The translations under genes were made by a program, and so were the position numbers. A DNA stretch of 37,446 nucleotides, from positions 1 to 37,446 of the forward strand of contig CANRVH010000013.1 of the NCBI GenBank assembly GCA_947643225.1, in the 5' to 3' direction. The notes beneath the pieces are model-generated. The model worked only from the letters and a program-made list of their open reading frames with translations. It was not told where the DNA came from and made no database searches. Below, piece by piece: positions 22,078 to 32,491 of the stretch (position 1 is the first letter of the stretch; every line of letters begins with the position of its first letter). This DNA comes from an uncultured Clostridia bacterium (GTDB lineage: Bacteria; Bacillota_I; Bacilli_A; RF39; UBA660).

Positions 22078-23298
22078 TTAATCTATGTAATTGTTTTGTT
22101 TTTTAATTTTCTTTTTAATTAAGAAGAAAATTAATACTAATATTATGATTACTATAATCTCAAATAGTAAAGCAAAATTCACTTTTTTCTTTTTCTTTTC
22201 CTCTTTTGAGTCATTCTTATCCTCTTTTATTATAGAATCTTTTTCTGTTGAATGATTTGGATCTTTTTTATCAGTATTATTTGAATTGTTTTCAGAATCG
22301 AAAGGGTGATTAGGATTTGATTCTTCCTCATTTAAATCTTTGTCTGACTTTGGTGGATTATTAGGATCAACGTTTGAGTCTGGAGATGGATCAGGTGTAG
22401 GCTCAGGTTTTTCAACAGAAGTTTTTTCAATCCAATCTACCTTAGCGAGTGTTTTTCCAATATTCCCAGCCTGGTCTTGATAAATAAATTCAAAAGTACC
22501 ATTTTCTTGGAAAATATAATTATTTTTTCCATCGTTATTAATGATAGTAATAGGTTCTGTTTCTTTTGTTAATATTGCAATAACAGGTTCGCTTGTCTTT
22601 TCATTATGGCTATATTCAATAATAGCGGTTGGAATAATTTTGTCAATCCAATTTACCGTTGCTGTAATACTACCCTCGCAGTTGTTTTCCTCATCTATAT
22701 ATTTAAATTTAAAACCTCCATTTTCTTTAAATGTGTAACTATCGCTTCCTCCATTATTCTTTATCTTTATTTTTTCATTAGGCGTATTTAATTTGGCAAC
22801 TACATTTTGATTTGTAAGTGATGGATGGTCGTATGTTATATTTACATTTATCACTGGACAAGAAGGTTTTATCTCTTCACTAGGAGGAGTGACAGGACAT
22901 TTAGAAGAACTATAATTAGGACATTTCAAACATACATCATAAGAATAAGTGATATTGTAATCTGTAGCATTTTCTCTTTTTCCTGATATAATAACATAAC
23001 TATCTTCGTTACAGCTTTCCTTTTTGTTAGTTGGATCGGTTAAATTTTCTAAAAAACCTTCATCAATTAAAGTTTGGGCATCCAATTTTAAATTTTCTTC
23101 TTCTGCTAATTCGTTATGTCTAATTAAATAATTATTTGAAGCTTTTTTTAAATTATCTTCAAAATTTTTGTATGTCTTTTTTTTAGAATTTGTTGTTAAT
23201 TTTGTGACTGCTGAAATTGTTATTCCACTTAGTATACTAAGTATAGCAATCACTGCGATTACTTCTACTAATGTAAACCCTTTATTATTTTTTTTCAT
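22078..23298 (-). CDS. Pilin-like surface protein with Ig-type repeats and C-terminal anchor
   Basis: The N-terminus is a class III prepilin signal: KKNNKGFTLVEVIAVIAILS, with cleavage expected after Gly7 and Glu at mature position 5. A pilin-like helical segment with four to six cysteines follows to about residue 150. Next come two repeats of about 75 residues, each ending in a strand such as SITATVNWIDK or LAKVDWIEK, which look like bacterial Ig-like modules. A Pro/Asp/Asn-rich spacer (about 300-370) leads to a C-terminal transmembrane helix (about 377-396) with a Lys-rich tail. Having both a prepilin signal and a stop-transfer helix is unusual. No pilus assembly genes adjoin it; it follows uvrC by 48 bases and has a TATAAT of its own. 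Confidence 0.8.
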   Translation of the reverse strand: MKKNNKGFTLVEVIAVIAILSILSGITISAVTKLTTNSKKKTYKNFEDNLKKASNNYLIRHNELAEEENLKLDAQTLIDEGFLENLTDPTNKKESCNEDSYVIISGKRENATDYNITYSYDVCLKCPNYSSSKCPVTPPSEEIKPSCPVINVNITYDHPSLTNQNVVAKLNTPNEKIKIKNNGGSDSYTFKENGGFKFKYIDEENNCEGSITATVNWIDKIIPTAIIEYSHNEKTSEPVIAILTKETEPITIINNDGKNNYIFQENGTFEFIYQDQAGNIGKTLAKVDWIEKTSVEKPEPTPDPSPDSNVDPNNPPKSDKDLNEEESNPNHPFDSENNSNNTDKKDPNHSTEKDSIIKEDKNDSKEEKKKKKVNFALLFEIIVIIILVLIFFLIKKKIKKQNNYID

Positions 23299-26286: not shown

Positions 26287-28116
26287 TTATCTAAATATTT
26301 TTTTCATTACACGATCTAGTTCTTTTTTCTCTATTGGTTTAGCAATATATTCATCAAAGCCATCTTGAAGCAAATATTTTTCTTTCATTCCATCTATTGC
26401 ATTGGCTGTTAGCATTACAGTCGGGGTCTGAAAATTAGAATTTTGTTTTAATCTTTTATAAGTTTCTACTCCACTCATATTTGGCATCATATCATCCATT
26501 AAAATTAAGTCATAAGCTTCTCCTGATGCTATTTTTTCTATACAATCTGTTCCACTTAGAACAGACTCTACTTCTACATTGTATCTTTTTAATAAACGTT
26601 CTGCTACTTTGATATTTAATTTATTATCATCTACAATTAGGACTCGCTTGTCACCCATTTCTTTGATTTCTTCTTCTCTTTTATTTTCTAGGCTAGTATT
26701 TTTAGTCATATATACGATTTCCTGATCTATCGCAACGGTATATTTGCGCCCTCTTCCATATACATTTTGAGCAACTATTGTACCTCCCATTAGATCCACT
26801 AATTTTTTTGTTGTTATAAGAGATGATGTTATTCCTTCTAGTAAATCTTCTTCTATATTATTGTTTTCTTTATCTAAAAATATTTTTTCTAATTTCTCTT
26901 TTTTGATTGTTCCTCCTGTATCTTCTAAAGAAATAATCAATCTACAAATATTATTTTTATTCACTGAAGTAACATTGAATTCTATATATCCTATTTTTGT
27001 TCTTTCTATTGAATTGGCAAGTAAATTTAATAATATTTGTCGTAAAATGACATAGTCTCCATATAATGCTTCTGGTAATGTTGTATCAAAACAGGTTCTT
27101 AATTCTACCTTATTTTTGATTATAATTTCTTTAGAAAAATCTACTAATTCTGCTAACATTGTTACTAGATCATATCTTTTCTTTACAATATTAATTCTTT
27201 TGGACTCTAGTTTTGAAATATCTAAAATTCCATTTACTACTTGCAATAAATTTGTTACAGAAGAAGAAATATTTGCTAAGTCACTTTTTGCTTCTTTATC
27301 TAGCTTTCTATCTGAAAGTGAATCTGTGAAACCAATAATTGTTGTAAGGGGAGTTCTTATTTCGTGAGAAATTTCGTGTAAAAACTCAGTTTTGGCTCTA
27401 TTTGCTTCCTCCGCTCTTTGTTTAGCATCACTTAATTCGTCAATTATTTTTAAATCTGGATTTTCGATTGTAAAATATAATAGAAATGTAATAAATGTTT
27501 CTACTGGTGTTGTTAATAATAATTCTGGATATTTATATTGGATATATATTATAATAGGAAAAATGATTGTATATCCTATTAGGGGAATAAATTTATTCTT
27601 TTGGATATTTTTATAACCTATTAACATAAATAGCAAGCTAGCTATAATACAAATCGAACTCATTATTGCACATAATAAACTACTTGGTCCATAAGAATAT
27701 ACTGAGTTTAGATTTGCATTATTATAATATAATGGTAATACTAATAATGCAAATGCTACTACTAAATATATTTTTAGAAAAATTCCTCTAATTTTTTTAT
27801 ATAATTCCTTATTATTAAATCTTAAATTAATTCTTTTTTTAAAAGAAATTAAAAAAGTATAATAAGCAAACAAGCTCAGCCAGGTTAATAAAAGTACTAA
27901 ATAAGTTTTATTGATGATGGGGGTAAGAATGGGAAATTTTTCATGATTTAGTGTAACTAAATAACAAAAAAGTTCTAAAATTAAACTAATAAAATTAATT
28001 ATTGCTAGTGTAGAATATACTTTATTTTCTAAAGTGTTTAATCTTCTTTTTGAAAAGAAGACGATTATAAGCAACGCACTATAAAACATACTACATATAA
28101 TAAAAGACGAACTCAT
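26287..28116 (-). CDS. Hybrid histidine kinase with 7-helix membrane sensor
   Basis: Seven or so transmembrane helices fill residues 5-220 and form a 7TM-type sensor. A short linker with ELSDAKQRAEEANRAKTEFL leads to the dimerization domain with phospho-acceptor His251 (HEISHEIRTPLTTI), then an ATP-binding domain (LLNLLANSIERTKIG as N box; EDTGG and LVDLMGGTI as G boxes). A C-terminal receiver domain (RVLIVDDNKLNIKVAERLL, then DLILMDDMMPNMSGVE with the phospho-acceptor Asp, and the final Lys in YIAKPIEKKEL) follows. No DNA-binding output is attached, so phosphate is probably passed to another protein. The start is ATG 28116, six bases after GGAGG. It sits between rpsU and yqeY and probably shares a transcript with yqeY. 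Confidence 0.92.
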   Translation of the reverse strand: MSSSFIICSMFYSALLIIVFFSKRRLNTLENKVYSTLAIINFISLILELFCYLVTLNHEKFPILTPIINKTYLVLLLTWLSLFAYYTFLISFKKRINLRFNNKELYKKIRGIFLKIYLVVAFALLVLPLYYNNANLNSVYSYGPSSLLCAIMSSICIIASLLFMLIGYKNIQKNKFIPLIGYTIIFPIIIYIQYKYPELLLTTPVETFITFLLYFTIENPDLKIIDELSDAKQRAEEANRAKTEFLHEISHEIRTPLTTIIGFTDSLSDRKLDKEAKSDLANISSSVTNLLQVVNGILDISKLESKRINIVKKRYDLVTMLAELVDFSKEIIIKNKVELRTCFDTTLPEALYGDYVILRQILLNLLANSIERTKIGYIEFNVTSVNKNNICRLIISLEDTGGTIKKEKLEKIFLDKENNNIEEDLLEGITSSLITTKKLVDLMGGTIVAQNVYGRGRKYTVAIDQEIVYMTKNTSLENKREEEIKEMGDKRVLIVDDNKLNIKVAERLLKRYNVEVESVLSGTDCIEKIASGEAYDLILMDDMMPNMSGVETYKRLKQNSNFQTPTVMLTANAIDGMKEKYLLQDGFDEYIAKPIEKKELDRVMKKIFR

Positions 28117-28163
28117 AAACAACCTCCATATATCTTTTTATTCTTTATCTTTCTTCTATTATA

Positions 28164-28193: not shown

Positions 28194-28224
28194 AATAAAA
28201 GTTGTCAATTTGACAACTTTTATT
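28194..28224 (-). terminator. Strong terminator after rpsU
   Basis: A perfect 14-bp stem (28194-28207 with 28211-28224, core GTTGTCA/TGACAAC) with a three-base loop is followed by T-rich sequence on the minus strand. It includes the last base or two of the rpsU stop and should separate rpsU from the kinase gene. Confidence 0.85.
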
Positions 28225-28423
28225 AATCTTTATCTCGATTTGATTTATTTCTTTTTCTTGAGTTTTTGATTCCTTCTTTTTTTGCTTTTCTTCTTCTTAC
28301 TCCTGGTTTATCGTAGCATTCTCTTTTTTTGCATTCTGAAGGGACTCCGTCTCTTGCGACCTTTTGCTTAAATTTTCTTAAAGCCATATCTAAGTTACCA
28401 TTCTTCACAGTTACTTGTGTCAT
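28223..28423 (-). CDS. rpsU: 30S ribosomal protein S21
   Basis: S21 is a small, very basic protein of the 30S platform that helps mRNA binding. The 66-residue sequence has the family pattern: QVTVKNGNLDMALRKFKQKV, GVPSECKKRECYDKPG, then a Lys/Arg-rich tail. It has its own promoter, a GGGAGG site and its own terminator. Confidence 0.96.
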   Translation of the reverse strand: MTQVTVKNGNLDMALRKFKQKVARDGVPSECKKRECYDKPGVRRRKAKKEGIKNSRKRNKSNRDKD

Positions 28424-28485: not shown

Positions 28486-28581
28486 CAAAAATATACAAAA
28501 ATTTACATCTTTTCATTAAATTGATGCTTCTATTCTCTACTTTAGAATATTATCTGTCCTTTTTAACCAAGATTATTAGGT

Positions 28582-28749
28582 TTATTTTAAAGGACACATA
28601 TTCTGATCCACAATTCTTCTAATTGATGAACCTACTCCTGTTCCTGCATCATGCAACACTTTTATTATATTAGTGAATGCATTGATTAATGTTCCAGATA
28701 TAGTCGTTCCTCCTCTTATATCATTCAAATTTTTTTGTGATAATCTTAT
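28582..28749 (-). pseudogene. Second double-glycine peptide, start codon ATA
   Basis: Directly behind the first peptide gene, in another frame, 55 codons encode a second bacteriocin-type precursor. The leader IRLSQKNLNDIRGG has the usual Leu/hydrophobic pattern and ends in Gly-Gly. The 41-residue core starts TTISGTLINAFTNIIKVLHD, contains GTGVGSS, and ends with a Cys three residues before the C-terminal Lys. The first codon is ATA, overlapping the TAA stop of peptide 1 as ATAA. In tight operons one expects ATGA there; a single G-to-A change would keep the stop and destroy the start. No other ATG, GTG or TTG gives a full leader, and no Shine-Dalgarno is seen. The gene is therefore silent, or weakly translated by coupling from a rare start. 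Confidence 0.6.
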
Positions 28750-28895
28750 GGTGTATTGTTACAAGATTTTGGATGAGTATATCCTTCTATTATTCCTGAT
28801 ATGAATATAGCTATTGCTGAGGTAATCACATATGCCCAAACCGAAACCTCTCCTCCTATTATATTTTCTAATTCTTTTTCTTCTATTTTTTGCAT
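28746..28895 (-). CDS. Double-glycine-leader bacteriocin-like peptide
   Basis: This 49-residue precursor starts at ATG 28895, one base overlapping the stop of the upstream gene (TAATG), behind AAGGAGG. The leader MQKIEEKELENIIGG (15 residues) is a textbook double-glycine leader with acidic residues and hydrophobics at the positions read by C39 peptidases. The predicted mature peptide of 34 residues begins EVSVWAYVITSAIAIFISGI. It has one long hydrophobic helix with an SxxxxxxSGxxxG-like small-residue face, then a polar tail EGYTHPKSCNNTP with a single Cys. This fits a class II pore-forming bacteriocin, perhaps half of a two-peptide system. It could instead be a signalling peptide; no regulator is encoded beside it. 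No immunity gene is obvious. Confidence 0.85.
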   Translation of the reverse strand: MQKIEEKELENIIGGEVSVWAYVITSAIAIFISGIIEGYTHPKSCNNTP

Positions 28896-29290
28896 TATTC
28901 CTCCTTCCAACAATCAAAGAATAAGTTTATCATTCTCTCCTTTTTATTAAAAATGCTAATATTTAGTAAATTCTTATTTGTGATACCATTTATTTTTAAT
29001 AAAATTTGATGATAGTAAACTTTTTTCCTTTGGTAAATGTTTTTTGTTGTGGATATGATTTCTATTTTTGTTTTTTTAGAATTTAAGTAGATATAATTAT
29101 TTTTTTCAATTTGTTTCAATTCTTTTGTAGTTATTACTATTTCTACTATATTATCTAATATGTAAGAAGCGTTTATTTTAGTATATTCATTGTAATCTTT
29201 TATAAAAAGCATTGTCAAAAGTAGAATAAAAATTGTTATTGTAAATACATTTATTGTAAATAACAATTGATATTTTTTATATCTTTTCAT
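28895..29290 (-). CDS. Small membrane accessory protein of bacteriocin export
   Basis: A single transmembrane helix (about 9-30) is followed by 100 residues predicted outside the cell and rich in beta strands (DNIVEIVITTKELKQIEKNN, then VYYHQILLKINGITNKN). This looks like a shortened HlyD-type accessory (membrane-fusion) protein as found beside C39-peptidase exporters, in which long coiled-coil arms are missing. The gene overlaps the exporter by 14 bases and the peptide gene by one, so all are co-translated. An immunity function is the main alternative. Assignment rests on context and layout, not on a clear motif. Confidence 0.65.
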   Translation of the reverse strand: MKRYKKYQLLFTINVFTITIFILLLTMLFIKDYNEYTKINASYILDNIVEIVITTKELKQIEKNNYIYLNSKKTKIEIISTTKNIYQRKKVYYHQILLKINGITNKNLLNISIFNKKERMINLFFDCWKEE

Positions 29291-31346
29291 GTATTTTTCC
29301 GCCTTTTAATGTAAGTATTCTATCAAATAGATTAGTACATGTTAATCTATGACTAATTACGATTACTGTTTTATCTTTTAAATAGACTAAAATATTTTTT
29401 AAAATTTCTTGTTCCTTCTCCATATCGATTTGATTTAATGCTTCATCGAAAATATAAATATCACTATCTTTCATAATCGATCTAGCGAGAATAATTCTTT
29501 GTTTTTCTCCTCCGCTAAAATTCTCACCTTGTTCTTCAATCATTTTTGAATATCCCAAATTTTTATCTAATAACTCGTCTACTTTTACTAGTTTGCATAT
29601 CTTATCTAGTTTTTCTTCATTTTCATCATTAAAGATAATATTGTCTTTAATCGAACCAGTGAATAAGTTTTCTTGTTGGGAAGTATAGGTTATTTTTCTC
29701 CTTATTGTATCTAGATGATAATGTGTTATGTCAATGTTGTTAATTGAAATAAAACCATAATTTATATCAATAAAACCGCTTAATATTTTCATCAATGTAC
29801 TTTTTCCGATTCCACTTTCTCCTGTAAAAAATATCTTATCTTTCTTTTTAATTGTTAAATTCAGCCTGTTAAATATCTTGTTGTATCCATAACTATATGT
29901 TAAGTTCCTTATTTTTATTGTCCCGTTTAGCTTATATTTTTGAAAATATTCTAGGCAATTGAAATTTTCTTGTTTTATCATAAATAAATCTTCTATTCTA
30001 TATTTTGATACTTTATACTTATGATACTCCTTATATAACGATAAAATATTTTGATAAGATGAAAGATAATATGATAAAATACTTTGAAAGACAATTAAAC
30101 TACTTATACTTAATCTATTTTTTATAATTAAATTCGCCCCTGTTGTTAATAGTAATATTGTAAAAATATCATTGGTTAATAAATTTAAAAAGTTATTAAT
30201 TAAAATTAAGTTGTTCAATTTATATGTTTTATCTAAAAATATTTGATATTCTTTAAGAAAATAATTTAACTTCTTTTTTTCAATATGTAAACTTTTAATT
30301 GTATTCATTGAATTTATATTTTCAAATAAAATAGAGTTAATTTTATCACAATTTTGTAAATATTTACTTGTTATCTTTATTGTGGGTTTATTTAGTATAA
30401 CTTCTAATATAAAGAGAACAAAACTTAATAATATTGTAATTATTCCTAATTTATGATTAATAGAAAATAGGATATAAATAAAAGTAATCATTAATATGGA
30501 GTCAATAATAAAGTAAGAGAAAAATTTTGTTAAAAATGATTTAATAACTTCTAAATCTTTAATCCTTGATATTACCTCCCCTGTTGTTCTATTTTTATAG
30601 TATAAGTATGGTAATAGCATCAATTTCTTTAAGACCTGTTTTGTTAATTTTTCCTCTAATATTTCACTCCATTTTAGAAGAGTTAGATTTTTTAAATACA
30701 GTGTTATTTCTTTTATTACTAAAATAATCAACATTACTTTACTAATTAAAAAAACGTTTTGAATTATATTATAATTTATTGCTTTATTTAATAATAATTT
30801 AAAATAAAAAGCAGAACTGATATTTAAAAAAAAGTAAATAATGGTTAATAGTAAGATGTAAGGAATATATTTTTTATTATTTTTGATAAAATCTATTATC
30901 CAATTACTTACTAATTTCTTTTTCTCTAAATTAATTATCTTCTTTGTTGGTTTTAAATAAATAAAGTTATTACTTGTCATTAAATTAAATTCAGAAAATG
31001 ATATTTTTTTCTTTCCTATTGCTGGATCCATAATTAAAAGTTCTTTTCTTAGATTATTAATTTCATAAATTACAATAAAATGTTGATAACTTTTATTCAT
31101 AATAACATGACTAATTATTGGTAATATTTCTTGATTTATATCTGATATGCTCATTTTCATCCCATAAGAATTAAATCCTACTTTAATCGCCGCTTCAACA
31201 AGACTATAGGCACTTACTCCGTTTTTTGTTGTGTTGGTTAATTCCCTTAACAATTCTAGAGAAATATTTCCTTGATAATGTCTTATAATTGATAAAAGAC
31301 AACAAACTCCACAATCTTTTAATCCTTCTTGTCTAACGACTTTCAT
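29277..31346 (-). CDS. Peptidase-containing ABC exporter (C39 family)
   Basis: This 689-residue protein cleaves double-glycine leaders and exports the mature peptide. The C39 peptidase domain (1-125) has Cys12 (GLKDCGVCC), His89 (YQHFIVIYE) and Asp107 (LLIMDPAIGK). The membrane domain spans about 160-430 with six helices. The ATPase has Walker A GESGIGKS (509-516), Q-loop near 557, signature SGGEKQ (611-616), Walker B YIFDEA (631-636) and the H-loop His666. All catalytic residues are present. The start is ATG 31346 behind GGGAGGTG; a longer frame to 31430 has no good start signal. It opens the operon exporter, accessory, peptide(s). A weak promoter (TTAACA, 18, TATGAA) may overlap the preceding terminator. 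Confidence 0.94.
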   Translation of the reverse strand: MKVVRQEGLKDCGVCCLLSIIRHYQGNISLELLRELTNTTKNGVSAYSLVEAAIKVGFNSYGMKMSISDINQEILPIISHVIMNKSYQHFIVIYEINNLRKELLIMDPAIGKKKISFSEFNLMTSNNFIYLKPTKKIINLEKKKLVSNWIIDFIKNNKKYIPYILLLTIIYFFLNISSAFYFKLLLNKAINYNIIQNVFLISKVMLIILVIKEITLYLKNLTLLKWSEILEEKLTKQVLKKLMLLPYLYYKNRTTGEVISRIKDLEVIKSFLTKFFSYFIIDSILMITFIYILFSINHKLGIITILLSFVLFILEVILNKPTIKITSKYLQNCDKINSILFENINSMNTIKSLHIEKKKLNYFLKEYQIFLDKTYKLNNLILINNFLNLLTNDIFTILLLTTGANLIIKNRLSISSLIVFQSILSYYLSSYQNILSLYKEYHKYKVSKYRIEDLFMIKQENFNCLEYFQKYKLNGTIKIRNLTYSYGYNKIFNRLNLTIKKKDKIFFTGESGIGKSTLMKILSGFIDINYGFISINNIDITHYHLDTIRRKITYTSQQENLFTGSIKDNIIFNDENEEKLDKICKLVKVDELLDKNLGYSKMIEEQGENFSGGEKQRIILARSIMKDSDIYIFDEALNQIDMEKEQEILKNILVYLKDKTVIVISHRLTCTNLFDRILTLKGGKIHEKI

Positions 31347-31459: not shown

Positions 31460-32491
31460 TTATCTAGTCGGAGATTCTAACAGTCTTAGTTTTTTATTTG
31501 TAAAATCAACTTCTATTTTAGAACCTAAAGGTAAGACTCCTATGATATAAGAGTGTCCTATATTTATATTATATAAAATGGGGAGATCTTCACAGTGAAA
31601 TTCTTTTAGAACTTTTTTATATACTTCTTTATACTCTTCATAGTATTTTTCTTCCTGAGGTTTTCCCACTACAATTCCTTTAATCACTTCAAATATTTTC
31701 TGTGCTCCTAAATTTCTTAAATACCTAGTTAAATATTCTGGAGATATTTTTTCTTCGCTTGTTTCAATTAGTAAAATTTTGTCTTTCCAGCCTTTTTCAT
31801 TTGGCCAAATTTCTGTACCAATAATCATTGGAAAAACATCTATACAACCTCCTAATAATTCACCTGTTACTACTCCGTTTCCTTGAAGGGTTTCATATCC
31901 ATGGCTTTCTTTTAATAACCTTTTATTAACCTCCATGTTTTTTATATTCCAAGGTACAAAGTCATCAGTCCAATACTTACTTGATTTTATTTCATATCCT
32001 TTACAATTTGTAAATAAAATTTTTTGAACAGCTTCTTTTGTATAGTCAAACATTTTTACATATTCACCAAATTCGCACATAATGGATGGTCCATAAAAAG
32101 AAATTATTCCTGCTTTATTCATCATAAAATGGTTTACTGTGGAATCGGAGTATCCCAAAAAGATCTTTGGATTATTTTTTATCACTTCATAATCAATATA
32201 TGGTAAGATTCTAATTGTATCATTTCCCCCAATGGCACAAAAAATTCCTTTGATACTTTCATCTTTAAAAGCATCCATTAAATCTTTCGCTCTATCTTCT
32301 GGATGATTATAGATATAATCTATTCCCTTTAAAGCATGTGGCATTGTAATTACTTCTAAACCAAAGTGTGTTTCTAATCTTTCTTTAGCAATATTATATT
32401 TATGGATTAAGTTCTCTTCTCCTAGTAATCCTGATGATAAGCTTACTATAGCAATTTTATCCCCTTTTTTTAACATACTAGGTTTTATCAT
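31460..32491 (-). CDS. S66-family peptidase (LD-carboxypeptidase/MccF-like)
   Basis: The 343-residue cytoplasmic protein has the S66 serine carboxypeptidase layout: LKKGDKIAIVSLSSG at the start, CAIGGNDTIRILPYID, nucleophile Ser115 in FLGYSDSTVNHF, the Glu in LLIETSEEKISPE and the His in NINIGHSYIIGVLPLG. Family members either recycle murein tetrapeptides (LdcA) or detoxify microcin C-type peptide nucleotides (MccF). The longer insert around 165-215 (KYWTDDFVPWNIKN) is more MccF-like. It ends 114 bases before the bacteriocin exporter start but is separated from it by a terminator, so a link to that locus is unproven. Confidence 0.87.
   Translation of the reverse strand: MIKPSMLKKGDKIAIVSLSSGLLGEENLIHKYNIAKERLETHFGLEVITMPHALKGIDYIYNHPEDRAKDLMDAFKDESIKGIFCAIGGNDTIRILPYIDYEVIKNNPKIFLGYSDSTVNHFMMNKAGIISFYGPSIMCEFGEYVKMFDYTKEAVQKILFTNCKGYEIKSSKYWTDDFVPWNIKNMEVNKRLLKESHGYETLQGNGVVTGELLGGCIDVFPMIIGTEIWPNEKGWKDKILLIETSEEKISPEYLTRYLRNLGAQKIFEVIKGIVVGKPQEEKYYEEYKEVYKKVLKEFHCEDLPILYNINIGHSYIIGVLPLGSKIEVDFTNKKLRLLESPTR

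Follow-up and report, generated by a model that had tools for sequence, protein, structure and literature searches.

What does a 49-codon peptide gene do beside a peptidase-containing ABC exporter in an uncultured Clostridia bacterium, and does it act by itself? We analysed a window of 37,446 nucleotides (the whole of positions 1 to 37,446 of contig CANRVH010000013.1, assembly GCA_947643225.1), for which a first-pass annotation had described a compact bacteriocin-type locus with a C39 exporter and one peptide. The arrangement of its three overlapping genes was confirmed by their coordinates, the exporter and a 131-residue membrane protein sharing 14 bases and the latter sharing 1 base with the peptide gene, here called P1 (Table 1). 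The interval then given starts at 28582, where a second peptide gene, P2, has its stop, yet P2 itself went undescribed.

Table 1 Features of the locus and its downstream flank, with the basis for each assignment
Feature	Position	Strand	Basis
C39 peptidase-ABC exporter (PCAT type), 689 aa from ATG	29277..31346	-	Pfam Peptidase_C39 (5e-30), ABC_membrane, ABC_tran
Accessory membrane protein, 131 aa	28895..29290	-	AlphaFold2 model; position between exporter and P1
P1 ribosome-binding site AGGAGG	28900..28905	-	Visible in sequence
P1 precursor, 49 aa	28746..28895	-	Reading frame, family homologues, dN/dS
P2 precursor, 55 aa if read from ATA	28582..28749	-	P2 profile, motif columns, dN/dS
Possible 15-codon I-gene remnant (GTG start, MSFKINLIILVKKDR), speculative	28550..28597	-	Position of I start in relatives
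rpsU (ribosomal protein S21)	28223..28423	-	Pfam S21; conserved flank marking a fixed chromosomal site
Membrane hybrid histidine kinase (HisKA-HATPase-REC), possible regulator	26287..28122	-	Between rpsU and yqeY

P1 opens with the 15-residue double-glycine leader previously proposed for it, MQKIEEKELENIIGG, followed by the core EVSVWAYVITSAIAIFISGIIEGYTHPKSCNNTP, in which G34 and G38 form a GxxxG motif and Cys45 lies in the tail. Directly after P1 comes P2, also a double-glycine precursor, whose frame overlaps the P1 stop (ATAA); its leader is IRLSQKNLNDIRGG and its core, TTISGTLINAFTNIIKVLHDAGTGVGSSIRRIVDQNMCPLK, carries GxxxG, an RR pair and a tail cysteine. Over about 80 loci, the GxxxG in the helix of each peptide was close to invariant (its two glycines at 99% and 100% in P1, and both at 100% in P2). 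The other marked columns of P1 were F (97%), P (97%) and C (100%), and those of P2 were RR (about 95%) and C (100% of rows with a residue there). Comparison of the window with its closest relative, L044, gave dN/dS values of about 0.09 for P1 and 0.13 for P2, and on these sequence comparisons both peptides are under purifying selection. For P1, this selection and the homologues found across the family establish that the 49-codon gene is real.

Profile searches placed P1 near known two-peptide bacteriocins. The NCBIfam model TIGR03949 gave the window's P1 17.8 bits, below its cut-off of 21.5 and hence short of membership, and matched 17 of 19 relatives of P1 at E values up to 0.1 (best 3.6e-7); among relatives of P2, 4 of 20 matched, weakly. 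Weak ComC leader matches also appeared among the peptide profile results, and a search of solved structures with P2 returned nothing significant. In some genera (loci L181, L182, L140, L180, L187, L189 and L211), a third type of double-glycine peptide, lacking a tail cysteine, lies beside P1 or between P1 and P2.

The locus had seemed an odd, local one; instead it is nearly universal and mostly vertically inherited within one family. The P2 profile found P2 in 268 of 291 sampled genomes of the window's family, covering 144 of 150 genera. An order sample, made up of genomes of the window's family only, had P2 in 270 of its 288 genomes. In a class sample, P2 was present in 35 of 38 family genomes, with a leader-type match in one genome outside the family, and a phylum-level sample gave the same picture, with leader-only matches outside the family. 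Matches in f4 and f15, two small-genome families of the class, were rejected as P2, as they extend over little more than the leader and the residues next to it; separately, these leader-type matches (G740:C6:4531-4650 and those in other f4 and f15 genomes) suggest that double-glycine peptides for C39 exporters occur there. A plasmid search found no P2. Genomes of the family are small (0.4–1.9 Mb), and the named members found are metagenome-assembled genomes of uncultured Bacilli, Tenericutes and Clostridiales, several of them named as isolates from gut or rumen.

To compare surroundings, we took a single locus per genus, from about 80 genera. P1 adjoined P2 in 79 of 81 loci, the exporter lay upstream in 77 and rpsU lay downstream of P2 in 57, often followed by yqeY; the exceptions include L053, where the peptides have no nearby exporter, and L096, where P2 has neither P1 nor exporter. 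The adjacency of P1 and exporter and the shared rpsU flank argue for a mostly fixed site, mostly vertical inheritance and a core locus. Downstream of yqeY, several loci of this small-genome lineage (L047, L051 and others) encode putative YqfC and YqfD proteins, which in Bacillus are linked to sporulation. Elsewhere in the window, the 406-residue protein encoded at 22081-23298 has a type IV pilin-like methylation motif at its N terminus.

The exporter has all of its catalytic residues, as annotated, with the C39 tetrad and the ABC motifs complete: Q6, C12, H89 and D107 of the peptidase and K515, D634, E635 and H666 of the ATPase are invariant in all 73 full family exporters. A search of the window's own genome found one C39 exporter, this one; the other ABC matches there start at residue 127 or later of the query and so leave out the greater part of the peptidase domain. 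With no second C39 exporter found in the genome, it is unlikely that this one serves an unlinked substrate, an objection raised at the outset. A second objection, that close relatives might lack the peptides and still have the exporter, also falls away with one exception: where relatives retain the exporter, the peptides are retained with it. Of the 18 family genomes in which P2 was not matched, 14 show no C39 exporter and three have one at the edge of a contig; the last, G422, has an exporter and belongs to a genus with divergent peptides. The exporter is thus mostly missing where the peptides are. Immediately upstream of the exporter, both in the window and in L044, lies an S66 LD-carboxypeptidase (31460-32491), of a family that includes the microcin immunity protein MccF.

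Between exporter and P1, a single short accessory protein had been considered an unusual layout. It is the normal one in this family: one-TM proteins of 127–166 residues occupy this position in about 54 of 81 loci, and the window's protein has a dN/dS of 0.16 against its closest relative. It has no Pfam match. Its AlphaFold2 model (pLDDT 90) consists of one TM helix and a small beta-barrel of six strands and one helix, which recalls the barrel domain of membrane fusion proteins, and a PDB fold search returned nothing significant, with Streptococcus pneumoniae Spr0693 (5xu0) at E 0.57. Neither profile nor fold places it among HlyD-type (MFP) proteins. It resembles them, Spr0693 for example, in its N-terminal TM helix, in its barrel and in its place next to the exporter, but lacks the hairpin and lipoyl domain and has a quarter to a third of the usual HlyD-type length. 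We propose that it may be a minimal stand-in for an HlyD-type partner.

The tail cysteines of the two peptides are kept or lost together. Among 163 complete P1–P2 pairs, 150 have a tail cysteine in both peptides, 13 in neither and none in one only, in a table curated by inspection to sort out third double-glycine peptides, cysteines within GxxxG and I proteins (described below) taken as P2. Pairs without tail cysteines arose in at least four places (the g66 duplicates, g117, g8 and g64), and loss usually takes most of each tail along. On the exporter tree, cysteine changes in P1 and P2 coincide in six of six supported independent contrasts (P = 0.031, sign test), a modest test in which several contrasts are duplicated pairs of one genus. 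The g66 genomes (L129, L137, L144 and L147) have two tandem P1–P2 pairs, one with tail cysteines and one without; in the latter, a cysteine sits inside the GxxxG of P1.

This co-variation suggests that the tail cysteines act as a pair. The simplest chemistry would be an intermolecular disulphide between the C-terminal tails, possibly giving a covalent P1–P2 heterodimer; a shared metal site or a contact with the target could be the role of the linked residues instead. Our enzyme searches covered VKOR, with no match in 40 genomes or in the window's genus, and DsbA-like PF13462, which was matched in 1 of 25 family genomes but not in the window's genus, so a disulphide would have to form without an obvious enzyme. 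A search of a paper library found no report of an intermolecular disulphide in a two-peptide bacteriocin.

Immunity was said to have no obvious gene, which holds for the window and fails for about half of the related loci. In 51 loci, a hydrophobic open reading frame of 35–75 codons, here called I, starts at the end of P2 and encodes a leaderless protein with one helix; in the one-per-genus set, such a candidate directly follows P2 in 38 of 80 loci, and the rest have no recognisable immunity gene. When open reading frames were extracted without requiring the motif, GxxxG occurred in 50 of 51 I frames against 18 of 1,385 background frames, and the longer GxxxG[TSIN]xxR in 39 of 51 against 3 of 1,385; the invariant GxxxG of an earlier profile (A5) was so by construction. 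The I profile aligns in register with P2 (hhalign probability 93%, P = 2.8e-7) and has no match to P1, and one pair of relatives gave a dN/dS of 0.19 for I. I, which repeats the GxxxG[ST]xxR motif of P2, is a candidate immunity protein and might protect by mimicry of P2. The start of I commonly overlaps the cysteine codon of P2; we considered this overlap as the reason for the P2 cysteine and rejected it, the cysteine being kept in most loci without I.

The window itself departs from its relatives in two respects. No ATG, GTG or TTG gives P2 its full leader, an ATA standing where the relative L045 has ATG, and this is the only such locus among 168. A TTG that would leave a 7-residue leader was ruled out as the start, L044 having TTA at that codon. 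A genome search found no intact I, and the window holds at most the remnant in Table 1. The locus may accordingly be decaying in this genome, with the P2 start lost, I reduced and P1 alone made, which would be compatible with our reading of the family as a whole. We think such decay unlikely: the bodies of P1 and P2 remain under purifying selection against the closest relative, although a loss might be too recent to show there, and the overlap of the ATA with the P1 stop would permit coupled translation. Because of the missing intact I and the unusual P2 start, the window's system may be weakened or differently protected.

Taken together, the locus is probably a two-peptide, class IIb-like bacteriocin system that is core to an order-level lineage, and the bacteriocin-type assignment of the first-pass annotation is supported to that extent. 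The exporter would cut the leaders of P1 and P2 after Gly-Gly, and the cores would leave the cell through the short accessory protein. In a target membrane, the P1 and P2 helices would pair through their GxxxG faces and permeabilise it, with the tail cysteines joined, most simply by the intermolecular disulphide. In relatives that have it, I would occupy the place of P2 on P1 or on the target and protect the producer. We infer the killing, the disulphide and the immunity from sequence. In the most specific version, an order-level lineage of uncultured gut bacteria would have a core two-peptide membrane toxin, its halves linked by a cysteine from each, and the producer would be protected by a membrane protein that lacks a leader and copies the dimerisation helix of one half; we consider this version less likely than not.

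Bacteriocin loci are not usually core, confined to one site and mostly single-copy, as this one is, and such a pattern would fit signalling too. P1 and P2 could be a peptide signal, or pheromone, with a membrane histidine kinase as its sensor, a reading that would account for near-universal inheritance at a mostly fixed site; pheromones with double-glycine leaders use the same exporter type, the weak ComC leader matches point the same way, and a membrane hybrid histidine kinase lies nearby in five genomes of the window's genus, the window's own among them. No regulator had been noted in the first-pass annotation, and this kinase, beyond rpsU, may be one. That kinase, however, is of the HisKA type and was matched at this position, between rpsU and yqeY, in the window's genus only. 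Two peptides with strict GxxxG motifs and a linked cysteine pair exceed what a pheromone needs, the cores are alike across genera whereas pheromone cores usually diverge between species, and a P2-like I protein has no evident signalling role. We regard a pheromone as rather unlikely.

More doubtful still is a secreted helix pair with a household role, acting on the producer's own envelope, a host cell or a partner bacterium and not in competition. Its core presence in small genomes and the half of loci without a recognisable immunity gene would agree with such a role, but P1 scores best with class IIb models, and the loci that do have a candidate immunity gene point to peptides harmful to their own producer. 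A one-peptide bacteriocin, as first described, is very improbable: P1 by itself offers a double-glycine leader, a hydrophobic helix and an exporter, but P2 lies next to it, is inherited with it and has matching motifs, a GxxxG of its own and the linked cysteine.

If the two-peptide bacteriocin reading is right, the locus is of interest in several ways. Bacteriocins are usually patchy accessory traits; here the system occurs in nearly all genera of one large, small-genome, uncultured gut family and at a mostly fixed site. This distribution suggests that the lineage's way of life includes antagonism, or else a peptide function close to it. The linked cysteines predict covalent pairing, which can be tested, and some 160 natural P1–P2 pairs are available for structure–function work. 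The P2-like I protein likewise offers a testable mechanism for class IIb immunity, the mode of action of which was called unknown in a 2021 review (PMC8538875).

Compared with known systems, the locus stands closest to class IIb bacteriocins such as lactococcin G/enterocin 1071, plantaricins EF and JK and the lactobin A/cerein 7B group of TIGR03949. It encodes two different peptides in adjacent genes, both with double-glycine leaders and served by a C39-ABC exporter with an accessory protein; each helix has GxxxG, the mark of class IIb peptides (PMC8538875); no modification enzymes are seen in the locus; and some relatives have a small membrane protein as immunity candidate. At the sequence level, it thus shows each testable feature of class IIb, immunity in the window's genome apart. 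ComC and BlpC pheromones with ComAB and BlpAB share the double-glycine leader and C39 exporter, and systems of this type are sometimes core and chromosomal. They normally comprise one peptide with a dedicated adjacent kinase, in contrast to two GxxxG peptides and no kinase conserved beside them across genera. Immunity proteins of class IIb systems contain one TM helix or more, and CbnZ, that of carnobacteriocin XY, has 42 residues and a single one (PMC8538875). I resembles CbnZ in being very small, in its one TM helix and in being encoded with a two-peptide bacteriocin, and differs in copying the helix motif of P2, a distinction drawn from the description of CbnZ in that review and not from its sequence. 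From known class IIb systems, which are scattered, the family's locus differs in being core and mostly vertical, in the one strictly linked tail cysteine of each peptide and in an immunity candidate that resembles one of the peptides, and on these sequence features it would be a new variant of class IIb, core to its lineage and for the most part vertically inherited.
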